Shown in pieces: positions 3,951 to 21,766 of a DNA stretch of 31,234 nt. Every line of letters begins with the position of its first letter. The stretch's first letter is position 1. A program made the position numbers and the translations under genes. A model generated the notes under the pieces. That model ran no database searches, had not been told where the DNA came from, and worked only from the letters and a program-made list of their open reading frames with translations. Source of the DNA: a virus. Location of the stretch: positions 1-31,234 of IMG/VR virus record IMGVR_UViG_3300022750_000028, one strand, 5' to 3'.

Positions 3951-5756
3951 TCAAGCCGCGAGGCGCTGGTAGAGCTCAATGATGTCTGCTGCGTTGGCGC
4001 TGACCAGCGCTTCTGCCTCGTCCGGACAGACGCTGTTGCCGATCAATCGGACCTGGTCGGTCTTGTTGATGTCGCGCCATTCCTTGGCGCCGGTAACCGG
4101 GTCTACGAATAGCCCGCGGTCGATGATGTAGTCCTTGTGAAAGCCTTGCGCTGCCTTCAGCTCAGGTGGCTGCAGCATGCGCAGGGTGATGTCCACCAGC
4201 ACATAACCACCGACCATGACCATTTCGGCTGGGTCCTTGAAGTGCTCCGGCAAGTATTCGTGCATGAAGGCGGCGCAGCGGCGGGCCCCTTCCATCTGTT
4301 CAAGCGTCAGGGTGTCTGGCACTTGCACAACCTCGACCAGCGCAACCCGGTCCTTAGTAGGCAGTGTGTGCATTGGCTCGGCCAGCGAAATACCGTCCTT
4401 CTCGTTGCCGTAGTACTTCACCAGGTACGCGTTGACCAAACGCTGGTTGGCGCCGGATTGGCAGATGGTCGAGATTGGGTCGAAGGCGGAACGGCCGTCG
4501 CCTTTGTAATACCCGCCATTCGCCTGTTCGAAGAATGCGGAGACTACGCCGTGTCGCGCAGCACCGGCCAGCAGAGTCTGTGTAGGTTCTTGCGGCGAGC
4601 TGCCGACGGTGTTCTGACCGAAAGCTGTCATGTGTGCGGCAACCATCGCGAAGTGGCCACCTTTGACCTGGGCGACCTGCGTCCGCAGCGGCTCCTTCGC
4701 GTCGAAGTTGCGTTGCGATGATCCGTTCGCGCATTCGGTGAGGAATGGCGCGGCAACTGGCTGCACCAGTGCGTGGTGGGTGCCGCCGGCGCTGATGGTC
4801 GACAACGCCTCATTCATGCCATGGGTGCTGGTGTGCGCCGATGACGTGCCGCGCATGGGGACGATGAAAGGCTTGGCGCTGGTGAGCACGTGCCGCCAGC
4901 AGCCCTTGGCCACGCGGCGCATGGTGTTCTCGGCCATTGGCTTGTCGCGGAAGATGGTGCGCCCGAGGTTGCTCCAGTCGATGCATTCCGCCGCCGCGCG
5001 CCACGGCAATTGTTTGGCCGTCGGCTTCTTGTGGCGTACCGGTTCAGGCCAGACGATCGGAAGTCCGTCACTGCGTGCTACCAGGTAGAGACGCTTGCGA
5101 ATGGTTGGGGCACCGGCGTTTGCCGCAACGCGCTCCCGCCATTCCACGGTGTAGCCAAGACCTCGCACCAAGTCCGCGGCCGGGACATGGTCGCCGATGG
5201 AATCAAGGATCTCTTGCATGTCCGGGTGATCGGCAGCCAGCCCGGTGCTGAGCGCTGCGATAAATGAACGGAAGGTGCGCCCCTTCTCGGCCTTGATAGG
5301 ATGGCCGTCCTCGTCGATTGGGCCCCAGTCGCAGAACTCTTCAACGTTCTCCAGGAACATCAGGCGAGGTCGTGTGGCGTGAGCCCAACGAACCACTACC
5401 CAAGCCAGTCCTCGCACCTTGCGGTCGCGGGGGGCGCCACCCTTTGCCTTGCTGTGATGGCGGCAATCAGGTGATGCCCATAGTATTCCAACAGGCTGGC
5501 CACCGGTGGCGAGTACCGGGTCTACCTCAAACACATCAGCTACGTAGTGATCTGTCTGCGGGTGATTTGCGCGATGGACCGCCAACGCTATTGGGTTGTG
5601 GTTTACCGCGACATCCGGCTCCCGGTACGCCCGGGCTATTCCAGTGCTGGCACCGCCGCCACCAGCGAACAGGTCCACCACCAGTTCCTTTTTGAATGGC
5701 AGGCCCATGCTTAGTTGGCCGTGGATGAATTGGGGTTTCTTCTGTTGTGCGGACAT
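3951..5756 (-). CDS. C5-cytosine DNA methyltransferase, orphan phage type
   Basis: It transfers a methyl group from S-adenosylmethionine to carbon 5 of cytosine in DNA. From the ATG at 5756 the 601-residue product shows motif I DLFAGGGGAS (about 28-37), the catalytic-cysteine motif as ASPDCRHHSKAKGG (Cys about 98), motif VI ENV (about 136), motif VIII RKRLYLVAR, and motif X IGNSVCPDEAEAL near the end. The catalytic loop has PDC instead of the textbook PC, a form I associate with phage enzymes. A large middle region holds the target-recognition part. This start is chosen over one 12 codons upstream because AGAGGA is six bases away. No restriction enzyme is adjacent, so self-protection against host restriction or regulation is the likely role. 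Confidence 0.93.
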   Translation of the reverse strand: MSAQQKKPQFIHGQLSMGLPFKKELVVDLFAGGGGASTGIARAYREPDVAVNHNPIALAVHRANHPQTDHYVADVFEVDPVLATGGQPVGILWASPDCRHHSKAKGGAPRDRKVRGLAWVVVRWAHATRPRLMFLENVEEFCDWGPIDEDGHPIKAEKGRTFRSFIAALSTGLAADHPDMQEILDSIGDHVPAADLVRGLGYTVEWRERVAANAGAPTIRKRLYLVARSDGLPIVWPEPVRHKKPTAKQLPWRAAAECIDWSNLGRTIFRDKPMAENTMRRVAKGCWRHVLTSAKPFIVPMRGTSSAHTSTHGMNEALSTISAGGTHHALVQPVAAPFLTECANGSSQRNFDAKEPLRTQVAQVKGGHFAMVAAHMTAFGQNTVGSSPQEPTQTLLAGAARHGVVSAFFEQANGGYYKGDGRSAFDPISTICQSGANQRLVNAYLVKYYGNEKDGISLAEPMHTLPTKDRVALVEVVQVPDTLTLEQMEGARRCAAFMHEYLPEHFKDPAEMVMVGGYVLVDITLRMLQPPELKAAQGFHKDYIIDRGLFVDPVTGAKEWRDINKTDQVRLIGNSVCPDEAEALVSANAADIIELYQRLAA

Positions 5757-12571: not shown

Positions 12572-13192
12572 GGTCGCCTCCATCGGCGAGGTGAATGATG
12601 GCGAGGGCCGCCCGCATTCGTTTTAAACATATTGACCACAGGTGCATCCGGCGCGATCCGCCGGCATTCATGGCCGCTTAGAACACATCGCTACATCGGG
12701 TCAAACCAACAAAACTCGGCTGCACTCATCCATTCCGCTGATTGCCGTTGGGTGAGGAGGGGAGCGCATGCGAGCTGTGTCGGTGGCTAAGGTTGATGCA
12801 GGGGGCCGCATTGCGCGGTGCAGAAATCGTCCGCATCGGGGTGTGATCTGCATGACGTTTGTCAGCCGTTGCTCTCGCGTCGGTCGGAGGTACTCAGATC
12901 ACACTCCGATGGGGCCTGGTGCTGAGGAGTACCAGGTTCTCGGGCAGTTATCGTCAGGCTGACGTCTTGCTGGGGAATCTTTGGTTTCCGCTGGCTCTGC
13001 TTATCGGGTCATTCACGCGGTCCGAGCGTTTCGCTCTAGTCAGCCGTCGAGGTTTTCCTCGCGTTGGTAGCCTTTCGGGGCTATCTGATCTCCGGTCGCC
13101 GTAGAGGCAGTGCCGTCTTTGTTCGTATTGCGCTAACTGTTAAAGAGCGGCGGGTCTGTTGAGGCCCTTCGCAGGGACTGTGTCGCTGCGAT
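12572..13192 (-). ncRNA. Long structured leader of the early left transcript, no gene seen
   Basis: About 620 bases separate the left promoter from the first gene. Read along the leftward RNA it contains, in order: a small hairpin (CCCT/AGGG, 13176-13165), a boxA-like site (13149-13138), hairpin TAGCC/GGCTA (13083-13068), hairpin CGAGG/CCTCG with a tetraloop (13061-13048), hairpin GAGCG/CGCTC with a triloop (13036-13024), hairpin CCTGGT/ACCAGG (12936-12915) and a GC-rich hairpin CCGGCG/CGCCGG (12664-12648). No N-like protein gene was found. I infer a cis-acting antitermination leader, either NusB/NusE-dependent through boxA or of the HK022 put type. Plus-strand frames here (12768-12962 and 12859-13104) would be antisense to it and look spurious. 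Confidence 0.5.
13138..13149 (-). promoter_or_regulatory. boxA-like antitermination site
   Basis: On the minus strand the sequence is CGCTCTTTAACA, which differs from the ribosomal RNA operon boxA TGCTCTTTAACA only in the first base. It lies about 45 bases downstream of the predicted left promoter start point, where a boxA would act on the leftward transcript. Confidence 0.65.
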
Positions 13193-13198
13193 GGGTGA

Positions 13199-13240
13199 AA
13201 TATGCACCAGTGCAAACTAAGTGTCAATGCACTGGTGCAT
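13199..13240 (-). promoter_or_regulatory. Early left promoter with two operators
   Basis: On the minus strand, TTGACA (13227-13222) and CATATT (13204-13199) are separated by 17 bases: a strong sigma-70 promoter firing into the leader and the bet-exonuclease operon. Operator TGCACCAGTGCA at 13203-13214 covers the -10 side of the spacer, and its mirror TGCACTGGTGCA at 13228-13239 abuts the -35 box. The same 12-mer occurs at the rightward promoter (16690), so both are inferred targets of the CI and Cro proteins. Confidence 0.85.
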
Positions 13241-13285: not shown

Positions 13286-13339
13286 TTAACTTTTCAATCG
13301 GCCTCCGCTATGCTCCGTAACACCTGGATATATATACAG
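13286..13339 (+). promoter_or_regulatory. LexA box and promoter of the DUF1654-like gene
   Basis: CTGGATATATATACAG at 13324-13339 matches the LexA consensus CTGTATATATATACAG at 15 of 16 positions. A fair promoter precedes it: TTAACT at 13286-13291, a 17-base spacer and TATGCT at 13309-13314, so LexA would sit over the start point. This implies release during the SOS response. Confidence 0.8.
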
Positions 13340-13353
13340 TAATTGGAGGGTGG

Positions 13354-13665
13354 ATGACCAAGGCAAACAAGTATTCAAAACCGTCGCAAAGACAAGAAAT
13401 AAGCGGGATAGAGCGGCTTGGGATGCGCGTGTCGTCGATGATTAATCACCCGGTCGCGCAGGTTCAGCGCTGGGTAACGATCCATCGCCTAGACGATGAT
13501 GGCGATCGGGAGTGGGAAGAGGTGATGGGCCTGCTATCCGAAACGGATGGCATAGATATGGCATTTAACGACGATGAGTCGGTGACGCTGAACTGGGAGG
13601 TGAGCGCCGAAGAAAATCGCTCTGTAGAGGTGCTTGAGCAGATTGAGGAGGCGGCGCCTTTCTGA
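13354..13665 (+). CDS. DUF1654-like protein under LexA control
   Basis: A 103-residue acidic protein with the pattern I recall for DUF1654, a family found mainly in Pseudomonas: SGIERLGMRVSSMINHPVAQ, then VTIHRLDDDGDREWEEVM, then SVTLNWEVSAEE. Its function is not known. GGAGG before the ATG supports the start. It is transcribed away from the left promoter and ends at a bidirectional terminator shared with the convergent ATPase operon. The LexA box just upstream makes DNA-damage induction likely. Confidence 0.75.
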   Translation: MTKANKYSKPSQRQEISGIERLGMRVSSMINHPVAQVQRWVTIHRLDDDGDREWEEVMGLLSETDGIDMAFNDDESVTLNWEVSAEENRSVEVLEQIEEAAPF

Positions 13666-13677
13666 CGAACAATAAAA

Positions 13678-13702
13678 AGCCCGCGATGGGCGGGCTATTT
13701 TT
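13678..13702. terminator. Bidirectional terminator between convergent units
   Basis: Arms AGCCCGC (13678-13684) and GCGGGCT (13690-13696) enclose a 5-base loop; a T run follows on the plus strand and an A run precedes it. It can therefore stop both the DUF1654-like gene and the leftward three-gene operon. Confidence 0.8.
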
Positions 13703-13731: not shown

Positions 13732-14199
13732 TCAGATTTCATGTTTCCAAGACTTCATAAGAAAGCTTGAATTCAAAAGCTTGGAAGAAGACATTGCAAT
13801 ATTTGCAACTCTTTGGGATTTTGCACTTATTGGACGTTTGGCACTTTCGAAATCTAGCGTTATATTTTTTCGTAATTCTATCAGTAGCTGGCTTGGCTGC
13901 GGCTTATCGTTAAGTTCAGTGATTTGGTTGAAAGTCACTATTAAGCGCCGTAACAGGATTCTCACGTGATTTTGAGTAAATTTTGTATCTTTTTCTGTCC
14001 AAAAAGATAACACGCAGTCTTCCAGCTCGGATAACGCCTTTACAGCTCTGTCGATAGAATCATTGATGTCCTTTCGTTTAGCTATCGCGATTTGCTGCTT
14101 TCCACGTACTCGCCATCCGACAAGTGTTGAAACTACCCCTATAAACGCAAATGCCCATCCTACAATCGATCCAATCTCGGTAGCTGAACTTGCTGCCAT
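13732..14199 (-). CDS. One-helix membrane protein, third gene of the ATPase/STAS cassette
   Basis: The 155-residue product begins with one membrane helix (IGSIVGWAFAFIGVVSTLVG, about 9-28) followed by a basic stretch (RVRGKQQIAIAKRKD), so the remaining ~120 helical residues should be cytoplasmic. The ATG follows the TAA of the DUF4325 gene with no gap, so the genes are tightly linked. AT-rich, unlike the phage core. No family recognised. In this operon it could be the membrane effector or anchor controlled by the two signalling proteins. Confidence 0.7.
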   Translation of the reverse strand: MAASSATEIGSIVGWAFAFIGVVSTLVGWRVRGKQQIAIAKRKDINDSIDRAVKALSELEDCVLSFWTEKDTKFTQNHVRILLRRLIVTFNQITELNDKPQPSQLLIELRKNITLDFESAKRPISAKSQRVANIAMSSSKLLNSSFLMKSWKHEI

Positions 14200-14532
14200 T
14201 TATTTTGACTTCTCCGTGATCGCTTCTTTCACCCATTGTATTATTTCTATTTTCAATGATGGGTCTTCTTCTGAGACAATATGGTCGCAGATTGCGAGAA
14301 CTGTATTTTCATCAATGCCGTCTCTAATCAACCCACCGAATGCCTCATCTAAAAAAGATGAGCCGTAGCCAAATGCACCATCCAAAACTACGGTTATAGT
14401 TTCTTTATTTTCATTGGCTTTTATAGCTGGAATCAATACCGTTTTACGAAATTTTTCGCCCGAGTTTGGTCCTAGAGAATCGTATCTAGCCCCAGGAAAC
14501 TCAGAAAAATCTGTTACGAAAATTGTGCTCAT
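14200..14532 (-). CDS. STAS-like protein of the DUF4325 family
   Basis: From the ATG at 14532 (GGAA motifs upstream) the protein has 110 residues and shows the family pattern clearly: FSEFPGARYDSLGPNSGEKF (about 9-28), then a strand ITVVLDGAFGYGSSFLDEAF (about 46-65) and GGLIRDG. DUF4325 resembles STAS domains, which in SpoIIAA-type proteins bind a kinase-like ATPase partner. Its ATG overlaps the stop of the ATPase gene (ATGA), so the two are probably made in equal amounts and act together. No phosphorylated Ser/Thr can be assigned by eye; the Ser pair in GYGSSF is a candidate. Confidence 0.82.
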   Translation of the reverse strand: MSTIFVTDFSEFPGARYDSLGPNSGEKFRKTVLIPAIKANENKETITVVLDGAFGYGSSFLDEAFGGLIRDGIDENTVLAICDHIVSEEDPSLKIEIIQWVKEAITEKSK

Positions 14533-15686
14533 GCTTCCAATTCCTTCAAGGACACTGTCCACTCGATAAGCGTACCACAAATAGAGTGGCTGTAGCTTGC
14601 CGACCATTCTCGCCCGTTCGAACCATCAATCTCAGCGTACCCAGGTCGAATTGTCCCCGGGTACTTCTCGCCAGCTACAATGTAGCATCCGCGATTACTT
14701 CGTATAGACAGTAGCGCTCCTGGAAAGTGCTCTGTAATAGAGCGAATGTCGGCGCCGCCTTTTCCCCTATGAGTTTGATGTGTTCTAGTTCGTTTTATAA
14801 AAGTCGATGCGTGAATCATTTCTGCATCGCTGTTACCTAATATTCTGCATTTTTGAAAGATAGCTCTAAGCATGCTTTCGGGATGTTTTTTTGGCAAAGT
14901 TACCGGTATGCCTACTCCCAGATCACAGACTATAAGTGTGATTTTTTCTTGGTTCCTTCCTACTAGCATCCACCATCTGTTTTCTTTTAGTTGGGCACCG
15001 TTTTCATCGCGAGGATAAGCGTGATCTACACTATTTGCCATTGCCTCGATGGCGCCCTTGTAAAGTTGCGCCTTGGCTTTCTTGGTGATTGATGGTGGCA
15101 AACTATTCAATAGGCTCGCAGCTAAACTACCATCTGCGAGCTCGCCGGATAACTGACTCCATGCTGCAATATCGGCTCTTTTTGTCGGCGTCCGTTCCGG
15201 CTGTCCTATCATTTTAAAGAAACCAATTTGTTGCAGCACACCCTCGATGACTCGATCGTATTGCTTGTATTTGTGTCCAGATCTTCTGCTTGGGATGGAA
15301 CAGCCAAAAGACAGATTTTCATAGGTGGATAATAAATTTGATACGCTCGCCAACAGTCTAAGAGCTGCTGCGGCTGTGATCCGATGAGTATTTCTAAAGC
15401 AGATTATAACACGGTCATTATATCTTGAAGCTTGTTCAAGATTATTCAAGAAGTTGCAAAATGCGCCGAAATTATCTCCTGAATAGATGTCTAATTTGGG
15501 CGGCGCTTGAATTCTAGGCGTAGAGACATGAGAAGTGGCGCCCGGCACGGGAGGCTTAGGGTTCAGGAAAACTTGATTCAAGTCCCCCTGACCACCGGTC
15601 AAACCCTTCGGACGCTTCGCTTGCTCCAACCTACGACGTGCAGCGTTCAGCCTGTGCCGAAGCCTCGATCTGTTAAATTTTTTCAT
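14529..15686 (-). CDS. GHKL (HATPase_c) protein with N-terminal STAS-like region
   Basis: The 385-residue protein has the ATP-binding marks of the GHKL fold. The N-box helix is AIEAMANSVDHAYP (about 212-225), the G1 box is CDLGVGIP (about 254-261), the G2 glycines are in HRGKGGADI (about 306-314), and a final strand is GTLIEW. There is no dimerisation His box, so it is not a normal sensor kinase. It is closer to SpoIIAB/MORC-like switch ATPases. Residues about 92-120 (DRVIICFRNTHRITAAAALR) resemble a STAS strand-helix. First gene of an AT-rich operon with DUF4325 and a membrane protein, between cI and the early left region. No strong ribosome site is visible. Confidence 0.8.
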   Translation of the reverse strand: MKKFNRSRLRHRLNAARRRLEQAKRPKGLTGGQGDLNQVFLNPKPPVPGATSHVSTPRIQAPPKLDIYSGDNFGAFCNFLNNLEQASRYNDRVIICFRNTHRITAAAALRLLASVSNLLSTYENLSFGCSIPSRRSGHKYKQYDRVIEGVLQQIGFFKMIGQPERTPTKRADIAAWSQLSGELADGSLAASLLNSLPPSITKKAKAQLYKGAIEAMANSVDHAYPRDENGAQLKENRWWMLVGRNQEKITLIVCDLGVGIPVTLPKKHPESMLRAIFQKCRILGNSDAEMIHASTFIKRTRTHQTHRGKGGADIRSITEHFPGALLSIRSNRGCYIVAGEKYPGTIRPGYAEIDGSNGREWSASYSHSICGTLIEWTVSLKELEA

Positions 15687-15800: not shown

Positions 15801-16631
15801 CTACACCAAGTGTGCATTCCACACCAAGAGGACGCGAGCCTGGATGTATGTCTCGTCTGCCCTGATCGTCTGCGGCGGATGTCTATCGTTATCGGAAAGC
15901 ATCTTGATCTGATCATCACCGATCCACTGAAGGCGCTTGATGTACAAGTGCCCCTCCCAAGAGAACATGTAGATCCCATCCCCTGCGAACTCTCGAATGC
16001 TGACGTCTACCAGGAGCGGGTCACGGTGCTTGATAGTGGGGGCCATCGACTGGCCCCAACCTGTCACCATCTTCAGGTGGAAGTGTTCTTTGAATTCGAC
16101 GCCCATTTCTCGTAGGTGCTGAGGACTGACGCGCACGTCCTGAAACATCTCTGGGTAGTCGTGGGGGATCTGCCCGCCACCCATGGCCGCGCGCACGTCG
16201 TAATGCGCAATCCATACTTCGTCGCCCACAACTCCGGGGCGGTAGTAGTCGATTTCAATTGCGCCGCCGCCATCCTCAGATCCGGCAGCCGCCATAATCT
16301 TCTGCTTTAGGTGCTCAGGTAGCTTTGAATTGCGTGCCAGCATCTCTCGCACAAGCTCCGCGGAGGACGCCTTCTCGTGGTGCGCATTGCCTTCAATCCG
16401 CTCGCCATCCATTGGCGCGTGGCCGCGCAACTGATCCGTGCTCACACCGAAGAGAGCGGCCAGCGGGTAGACCTGCTTATCCGTAGGCTCTTTGATGCCC
16501 TTAGGCCCGGAAGGCTTGAGGATGCGAGAAATGGTCGGCTGTCCGACTTTTGAAAGGCGTGCTAGTTCGGCCTGATTGAGGCCGTCTCGAGCCATCAGCT
16601 CAGCAAGAATTTTATCTATCGTTTTATGCAT
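15801..16631 (-). CDS. cI: CI-type phage repressor with S24 self-cleavage domain
   Basis: It maintains lysogeny by binding the operators at 13203-13239 and 16627-16713. Starting at ATG 16631 it has 276 residues. A helix-turn-helix (LNQAELARLSKVGQPTISRI, 18-37) is followed by a linker and a LexA/S24-type domain with the catalytic Ser in GWGQSMAPTI (Ser195) and Lys in YIKRLQ (Lys232). RecA-stimulated cleavage is the expected induction route. The cleavage dipeptide is not clear; Ala-Met-Gly around 149-151 is a guess. The frame stays open upstream, but the ATG is set by the HTH position and by an operator-like site that overlaps it. The ribosome site is weak. Confidence 0.92.
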   Translation of the reverse strand: MHKTIDKILAELMARDGLNQAELARLSKVGQPTISRILKPSGPKGIKEPTDKQVYPLAALFGVSTDQLRGHAPMDGERIEGNAHHEKASSAELVREMLARNSKLPEHLKQKIMAAAGSEDGGGAIEIDYYRPGVVGDEVWIAHYDVRAAMGGGQIPHDYPEMFQDVRVSPQHLREMGVEFKEHFHLKMVTGWGQSMAPTIKHRDPLLVDVSIREFAGDGIYMFSWEGHLYIKRLQWIGDDQIKMLSDNDRHPPQTIRADETYIQARVLLVWNAHLV

Positions 16632-16713
16632 GAGTGCAATCGTCGCTTTAGCCAGTGCATACATCAATAGAGTGAGCCGTTGACAGTTATGCACCAGTGC
16701 ATGATCATGTGCA
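16627..16713. promoter_or_regulatory. Rightward operator region and early right promoter
   Basis: On the plus strand TTGACA (16680-16685), 17 bases, then GATCAT (16703-16708) form the rightward promoter. The 12-mer TGCACCAGTGCA lies in its spacer at 16690-16701, identical to the left operator. Weaker copies are TGCATGAGTGCA at 16627-16638 (10 of 12, over the cI start codon), 16648-16659 (8 of 12) and 16702-16713 (8 of 12). The first three are spaced by 21 and 42 bases, two and four helical turns. This is a lambda-like switch; the cI maintenance promoter is not obvious. Confidence 0.8.
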
Positions 16714-16733
16714 TATCTAAAAAGGAGGCAGCC

Positions 16734-16955
16734 ATGAGTGCTACCGATCTTCCGAACAAACTGGATGTATTGCTTGGCGCCGGGCTGACCTACAAGGTCA
16801 TTGCAGAGCGTGCCAAGTGTGACATCTCGACAATTTTCCGTATTCGTAACGGCCAGATCAGCAACCCCAGCTACATCGCAGGACGAGCGATCGACCTTAT
16901 GCACGATGAGTTGGCGAAATCCGCCAAAGACTCAGTGAAGAAATCCGCCGCTTAA
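16734..16955 (+). CDS. Cro-like regulator (73 aa)
   Basis: The start at 16734 follows AAGGAGG by six bases, right after the operator region. The product contains a helix-turn-helix (AGLTYKVIAERAKCDISTIF, about 15-34, then RIRNGQI) and ends in a Lys/Ala-rich tail. As the first gene of the rightward operon facing cI it is expected to repress cI and early transcription. The HTH is of the XRE type; sequence similarity to lambda Cro itself is not evident, so 'Cro' refers to position and role. Confidence 0.8.
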   Translation: MSATDLPNKLDVLLGAGLTYKVIAERAKCDISTIFRIRNGQISNPSYIAGRAIDLMHDELAKSAKDSVKKSAA

Positions 16956-19901: not shown

Positions 19902-21022
19902 GCATTGAGCGTAAGCAGCCACGTCCCAAGAAATGCCGTGTCGCCGAGTGCAGGGCCTCATTCGTCCCCGCGCGCCTGGGTCAGGCAGTGTGCAGCCCGA
20001 CCTGCGCGATTCTTGATGCGCCAGCGAACCGGGAGAAGGCGCGTAAGGCTATCGATCAGCTCGGTCGCAAGGAAATCAAGGTCCGCAAGGAGAAGCTGAA
20101 GAGCCGGGCCGAGCACCTCAAGGATACGCAGATCGCCTTCAACGCATGGGTGCGTGAGCGTGACGCCGAGCTGCCATGCATCAGCTGCGGCCGGCACCAC
20201 CAGGGCAAGTACGACGCCGGGCACTACCGCACAGTTGGCAGCAACCCAGCGCTGCGCTTCGAGCCGCTGAACTGCCATCGCCAGTGCTCGCCGTGCAACA
20301 CCCAGCTGTCTGGAAACATCGTGAACTACCGCATTGCACTGGTGAAGCGGATCGGCGCGGACGCTGTGGACTGGCTGGAAGGCCCTCATGAGGCAAAGAA
20401 GTACACCGTCGAAGAGTTGAAGGCGATGACCGCCGATTACCGGGCAAAAAACCAGAGAGCTGAAGGGGAGAGCGGCATGACTTATCGCAACGTGGTATCC
20501 GCAGTAGTCCGGGCGCTCGCCGCCGAAACCATCAACTCTGCAGGCGGCTGCGACTTTGAGCCCAAGGTGCAGTGCGACAAGCAGAAGGGGGAGATCGTCG
20601 GTAAGGAGGCAGCGTTCCTCACTGACTGCTGGGTGTTCGGTCGCCTGCACAAGGCGCTGTCTGCGGCGCACTGGCGGGCTTTGGTCGCGAAGTACTCCAC
20701 GCATGACGAGCGCAAGCATGGGGCAATCCTTGAACTGATCAAGACGGCACAGTCGCCGGCGCCGCAACGGTTCCGTGAGTGCGCGGTGCTGACGTGGGCA
20801 ATCCCGCAGGTGGCAGGCGTAGATGGTAAGCGTTCTGCCGCATTGCTCCCGGCAGCGTGGTACGACATCACGAACTGGGACAACGACGGCAAGCCCGAAT
20901 CGACTCGGTACCGGTGGCGTTCGAACATCCGCAAGGCGCTCGACGACCAGGTGAACGAGGCGCTGACGGCTGCTCAGGAACTGCTGGATTCAGAGGGCCT
21001 GATCGAAAGTTGCGCGGCGTAG
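19898..21022 (+). CDS. ninG: NinG recombination protein fused to a Q-like late regulator domain
   Basis: Residues 1-193 read as NinG. There is a cysteine cluster (CRVAECRASF, then CSPTC), a basic helix and an HNH-like zinc site (LPCISCGRHH, then YDAGHYRTVGSN and CHRQCSPCNTQLSGN). Usual NinG length is about 200. Residues 194-374 (MTYRNVVSAVVRALAAETIN, then GEIVGKEAAFLTDCWVFGRL) look like a separate Pseudomonas phage protein normally encoded by its own gene after NinG, probably the antitermination regulator. The junction is exactly at a Met with GGGGAG six bases upstream (ATG 20477), so an 181-residue protein may also be made alone. No stop separates the two parts. Confidence 0.8.
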   Translation: MSIERKQPRPKKCRVAECRASFVPARLGQAVCSPTCAILDAPANREKARKAIDQLGRKEIKVRKEKLKSRAEHLKDTQIAFNAWVRERDAELPCISCGRHHQGKYDAGHYRTVGSNPALRFEPLNCHRQCSPCNTQLSGNIVNYRIALVKRIGADAVDWLEGPHEAKKYTVEELKAMTADYRAKNQRAEGESGMTYRNVVSAVVRALAAETINSAGGCDFEPKVQCDKQKGEIVGKEAAFLTDCWVFGRLHKALSAAHWRALVAKYSTHDERKHGAILELIKTAQSPAPQRFRECAVLTWAIPQVAGVDGKRSAALLPAAWYDITNWDNDGKPESTRYRWRSNIRKALDDQVNEALTAAQELLDSEGLIESCAA

Positions 21023-21455: not shown

Positions 21456-21766
21456 CGTTTGCGGTACAGCCAGACCCATTGCTCCGAGCTGGGAGTGCTG
21501 ATAAGGCCGACTCATTCACCGCAGCCAGGGCGGCCTCACCACTGATAAGCCGGCAAGTGCAGTGCTACGACAAAACACCGGCAGCCCGCGTACCTCGTCT
21601 GAACCATGCTTACGGGGTAGCGCGAGACTGGATCTGCGAGATCGATGCATCAGGGCGTCGACGTAGAGAGGGTCTTTGGCTGACAGCGTGGAAAGACCAC
21701 ACATCTTTTCAGGGGCTCGACAATGTGCGTGGGCACCCCACTGATTTTTTGTCGAGCCTAGCCATA
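21456..21766. other. Gene-free stretch with two inverted repeats
   Basis: No convincing gene lies here, although one plus-strand frame stays open by chance from the previous terminator into the next gene. Two inverted repeats follow each other: GGTCTTT/AAAGACC at 21671-21677 and 21692-21698, and GGCTCGACAA/TTGTCGAGCC at 21714-21723 and 21749-21758. A small RNA or a regulatory leader for the gene at 21767 is possible. I do not recognise a known RNA family or tRNA. Confidence 0.4.

Follow-up and report, generated by a model that had tools for sequence, protein, structure and literature searches.

A putative lambda-like immunity region in a Pseudomonas temperate phage with repeated palindromic operators and a LexA-boxed DUF1654 gene

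The window, i.e., the whole 31,234-base virus record analyzed here, belongs to a Pseudomonas temperate phage. It harbors a cI repressor gene and a cro-like gene in divergent orientation with putative operators in between, three cargo genes downstream of cI, a DUF1654 gene, and a leftward early promoter, pL (Table 1). A RecT gene and an exonuclease gene lie under pL; the latter appears YqaJ-like, a name given from its sequence only.

Table 1. Features of the putative immunity region, in coordinates of the window.
Feature	Coordinates	Strand	Remarks
Long untranslated pL leader	12584..13192	-	predicted extent, set by pL and by the first gene, which starts at 12583
boxA-like antitermination element CGCTCTTTAAC	13139..13149	-	within pL leader
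pL, leftward early promoter	13199..13227	-	TTGACA-17-CATATT; sigma-70 consensus scan, 10/12
OL1, putative operator TGCACCAGTGCA	13203..13214	+	in pL spacer, reaching into -10
OL2, putative operator TGCACCAGTGCA, inverted	13228..13239	-	abuts pL -35; 25 bp from OL1
LexA box CTGGATATATATACAG	13324..13339	+	sole match in window against 0.03 expected
DUF1654 gene, proposed SOS-controlled induction factor	13354..13665	+	Pfam PF07867, E 4.7e-26
Bidirectional terminator-like hairpin	13678..13696	.	DUF1654/cargo boundary
Cargo gene 3	13732..14199	-	no named family; downstream of cI, same strand
Cargo gene 2, STAS-like DUF4325	14200..14607	-	PF14213, E 2.4e-10
Cargo gene 1 ("ATPase cassette")	14529..15686	-	weak HATPase_c_2 match, E 0.029; phrog_3364, E 1.6e-45
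cI repressor gene	15801..16631	-	HTH_3, E 6.6e-06; Peptidase_S24, E 1.3e-16
OR site TGCATGAGTGCA	16627..16638	+	on cI start codon; TGCAT..GTGCA invariant in 24 non-redundant OR regions
Candidate cI promoter	16638..16667	-	TTGATG ... GACGAT/ACGATT; predicted from sequence
Half-site GTGCATA of the 16648 copy	16655..16661	+	conserved
pR, rightward early promoter	16680..16708	+	TTGACA-17-GATCAT; sigma-70 scan; conserved in relatives
OR1, putative operator TGCACCAGTGCA	16690..16701	+	fills pR spacer
Half-site GTGCATA of the 16702 copy	16709..16715	+	conserved; just 3′ of pR -10
cro-like gene (phrog_6223)	16734..16955	+	downstream of pR

The computed sites begin with the 12-mer TGCACCAGTGCA, which occurs exactly at 13203 (+), 13228 (-), and 16690 (+), as an earlier note on this DNA had claimed. 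These three copies compare with 0.01 expected, and none of 100 shuffles reaches three. The informative core of the 12-mer is the palindrome TGCAC-NN-GTGCA, and the core word TGCACNNGTGCA is found in the window only at the same three positions (0.02 expected). Single-mismatch copies of the 12-mer are present at 4762–4773 and 20335–20346.

The earlier note also listed weaker copies at 16627, 16648, and 16702. The first two have two and three mismatches to TGCACCAGTGCA, respectively; the third (TGATCATGTGCA) has four by our own count, which places it outside the list of copies with at most three mismatches and makes it a half-site only. The window holds 46 such copies against 32 expected, and by mismatch count alone the weak ones are near noise. 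Across the 24 non-redundant OR regions, all four sites keep GTGCA as an invariant half, and the DNA between the sites is variable; therefore, the weak copies are probably real. The 16627 copy stands as a near-full, conserved site, while those at 16648 and 16702 are conserved as half-sites only. A common helix face had likewise been claimed for the sites. The stated 21- and 42-bp spacings are correct and correspond to two and four turns; however, 16690 and 16702 are 12 bp apart and the OL pair is spaced by 25 bp, so the sites do not all lie on one face.

Relatives were fetched by CI (80 loci) and by Cro (41 loci); the two sets overlap in some contigs, so the raw counts of loci are not independent. 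The 25-bp OL pair is present in 36 relative loci (26 non-redundant), with ATGCAC..GTGCA invariant in the non-redundant OL regions and the TTGACA and -10 of pL invariant or nearly so. The OR layout is present in 54 relative loci (24 non-redundant), its spacers being free to vary. As the window's record is a virus contig, genome frequency was scanned instead in 18 Pseudomonas genomes with DUF1654 prophages. Frequent occurrence elsewhere, which the earlier note held to count against operators, is not seen: each 4.5–8.7-Mb genome has 2–11 copies of TGCACNNGTGCA, with 0–7 for a reversed-pattern control. Among the matches listed, a single 25-bp pair is present (L159 genome), accompanied by a third site ~3.1 kb off; here another prophage carries the same switch.

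Many relatives have the CI C-terminal half in common and a different helix-turn-helix (HTH), for which six classes (A–F) are distinguished. The OR palindrome is TGCAC-N2-GTGCA in class A, AACCG-N-CGGTT in class B, TGAAC-N5-GTTCA in class C, TTAAC-N5-GTTAA in class D, TAAGG-N5-CCTTA in class E, and TTTAG-N4-CTAAA in class F. The same palindrome is also found downstream of cI in 13/16 loci of class A, 21/26 of class B, 12/16 of class C, and 3/3 of class F; an exact-match search downstream of cI in classes D and E gave no copy of their OR palindrome. The computed class-versus-motif matrix is near diagonal. Off the diagonal, the class B OR site is also matched by the D pattern, and the class C motif has three stray matches outside OR/OL, two of these in class B loci. 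One class C match downstream of cI (L055) is not at a promoter. The class A motif is absent from loci of the other classes, and in ~220 kb of class A loci, TGCACNNGTGCA occurs nowhere outside OL/OR. The pL -35 (TTGAC) of classes B, C, and F likewise has a class-specific site on either side, the second one being imperfect in C and F.

A further locus, L110, carries a class A HTH (63.5% identity) on an unrelated S24 C-terminal half, and both its OR and its OL retain class A operators. L110 is a natural CI chimera with a SAGAG cleavage-like motif and no DUF1654. Because relatives with another CI HTH carry another word in the same places, the 12-mers are very probably repressor docking sites. The covariation of HTH and palindrome is the closest that sequence alone gets to CI, or CI together with Cro, reading the word. 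Together with the conserved placement at pL and pR in the computed promoter layout, it strongly supports the earlier proposal that the 12-mers are putative CI/Cro switch operators at both early promoters.

The candidate cI promoter was missed by the consensus promoter scan, and the cI transcript is probably leaderless, with its predicted start at about the cI ATG. The 16627 and 16648 sites are conserved and lie over the cI start and the predicted cI promoter, and cI autorepression through them, as the earlier note had suggested, is plausible. In prophage P1 of P. putida KT2440, CI (PP_3896) has been shown to activate the promoter of its own gene (PMC12894663); thus, autoregulation of cI in the window could be positive or negative, or combine the two. 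In the CI cleavage region, the sequence is AAMGGG, whereas Ala-Gly or Cys-Gly is canonical for RecA-stimulated self-cleavage, and the Ser and Lys are present. Since AAMGGG replaces the canonical Ala-Gly, CI self-cleavage is uncertain. A PDB sequence search with CI and Cro retrieved no relative.

The predicted pL transcript starts near 13192 and has ~600 untranslated nucleotides. Its leader folds better than shuffles (z -3.6), and parts of it match other Pseudomonas phages at the DNA level. Most relatives, across HTH classes, have the boxA in their pL leader as well, and GNRA-like hairpins lie 3′ of it. An Rfam search of the leader gave no match. The pL leader is likely an antitermination site. 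In relatives, the same boxA is followed by leaders of several distinct types. Elsewhere in the window, the Rfam Proteo-phage-1 RNA is matched at 21519–21586 (52.6 bits).

In relatives, the interval between cI and DUF1654 contains varied genes, with 150 ORFs in the cI direction and 22 opposed (mechanical ORFs of at least 80 aa). PADLOC matches among 78 slot representatives include Kiwa KwaA/KwaB, PD-Lambda-2, and other models; PADLOC gave no match for the window's own cargo genes and DUF1654. In KT2440, the slot contents are RexABpp (PMC12894663). Because the window's cargo occupies a rex-like slot, a defense role for it is a fair guess.

The computed conservation of the LexA box extends to 89 of 92 viral loci, in which it lies ~30 bp 5′ of DUF1654 (a contig end cuts two of the three exceptions), and to 33/33 genome loci. 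The KT2440 gene PP_3901, which was traced to its prophage (L160) through primers printed in PMC4595014, encodes a DUF1654 protein (E 1.7e-32) with 30% BLASTP identity to the window gene over 82 aa and is preceded by the LexA box CTGTCTATGCATACAG. A passage of PMC4595014, citing Abella 2007, describes PP_3901 as controlled by LexA1 and LexA2 and as needed for damage-mediated induction of several prophage genes. Within the stretch fetched for them, several class A phages (L090, L095–L098, L100, L103, and others) lack both DUF1654 and a LexA box; therefore, DUF1654 is not essential. The idea that DUF1654 tracks the CI C-terminal type was rejected, as class A phages with and without DUF1654 have the same half.

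We infer that DUF1654 acts on CI. A less probable reading, which still deserves some weight, is that DUF1654 is SOS-controlled and acts elsewhere, e.g., in a general function in SOS or replication. The gene occurs with CIs from several HTH classes, and the CI that it adjoins in KT2440 P1 differs in C-terminal sequence, which would suit such a target, as would the lack of a structural relative in the fold search: its AlphaFold2 model (pLDDT 75) gave no significant Foldseek match, and VIA-align returned only Z < 7, a common alpha-beta arrangement with no informative relative. However, DUF1654 always lies in the immunity region beside pL, and the reported need for PP_3901 in prophage-gene induction also argues for an action on CI. 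For the broader proposal, the odds seem about even. Here, DUF1654 proteins would be genus-wide LexA-controlled antirepressors beside pL that induce prophages whatever the CI DNA-binding domain, either in addition to CI self-cleavage or in its place, and the whole OL–cargo–cI–OR block would be swapped as one immunity/defense cassette.

Looping of CI between OL and OR, which the earlier note had raised, is possible. That CI bound at both OL and OR must loop the DNA around the cargo in helical phase is doubtful; the paired sites at two loci ~3.5 kb apart and the lambda precedent for OL–OR looping would speak for it. The OL–OR distance ranges from 1014 to 6005 bp with no 10.5-bp phasing (Rayleigh p 0.62), although this is weak evidence against the phased loop because loops of such length would need no phasing.

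Alternatively, the 12-mers may be primarily sites of Cro or another small regulator, with CI reading something else. The cro-like gene adjoins the sites, the same operators are found in Cro-based loci, and Cro changes together with the HTH class, so the sites could be chiefly Cro's. This is nonetheless improbable, as the OL/OR motif follows the CI HTH in six classes, the sites overlap the cI promoter and start, and CI and Cro use common sites in lambdoid phages. Finally, although every locus was found by a search with this CI or Cro, it is most improbable that the 12-mer is conserved through recent kinship of the loci only and has no binding function, given that the sites are invariant islands between variable spacers in 24–26 non-redundant sequences, the 25-bp pair is constant while the OL–OR distance varies sixfold, and where the HTH is swapped, a new palindrome stands at the same positions.

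With a probability of roughly 0.9, the whole is explained as the immunity region of a lambda-like Pseudomonas temperate phage in which CI, probably with Cro, would act on TGCAC-NN-GTGCA and DUF1654 would serve as an SOS trigger. We infer binding of this palindrome by a CI dimer and probably by the Cro-like protein as well. In the lysogen, CI at OL1 and OL2 would shut pL and thereby the RecT and exonuclease genes, and CI at OR1 would shut pR and thereby cro and the replication genes, while the sites over the cI start and the cI promoter would set the cI level. One leftward unit would comprise cI and the cargo, with the latter in place of lambda rexAB. Upon DNA damage, LexA would free the gene for the DUF1654 protein next to pL, which would help inactivate CI. 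The early transcripts would then start, with the pL transcript crossing the boxA leader.

This reading would provide a sequence-level operator code for a large Pseudomonas phage group, such that immunity groups become predictable from sequence. It would also make the DUF1654 family a probable prophage trigger. The variable slot behind cI is where relatives have their defense genes.

The switch of the window is lambda-like and thus of an already known kind. It shares with lambda the use of one operator word at both early promoters, cargo downstream of cI in the rex position, and, as proposed here, SOS induction. In contrast to the three plus three operators of lambda, OL in the window has two full sites and OR has two near-full sites and two half-sites, the latter region spanning 80 bp, unlike lambda. 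The separate LexA-boxed DUF1654 gene beside pL is also not a feature of lambda.

Lambda-like immunity regions are known in the Pseudomonas phages D3 and vB_PaeP_YA3 (PMC7326022). As described in the D3/YA3 passages of that paper, these share with the window divergent cI and cro, the promoters pR, pL, and pRM, and an additional gene that separates cI from pL. The YA3 CI given there is a different 236-aa protein, unlike the CI of the window, and the same passages contain no operator sequence like the window's. Prophage P1 of KT2440 resembles the window in its CI, its rex-type cargo downstream, its LexA-boxed DUF1654 gene, and a 25-bp operator pair around TTGACA with boxA downstream (L160 3011–3500; L162 8186–8224). 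However, its operator is ATGAG-NNNN-CTCAT, the C-terminal half of its CI (PP_3896) differs from that of the window CI, and its DUF1654 gene reads along the pL direction, whereas that of the window reads away from pL. What stands out more than the switch as such is the sorting of the operators into classes by CI HTH, along with the DUF1654 gene behind its LexA box.
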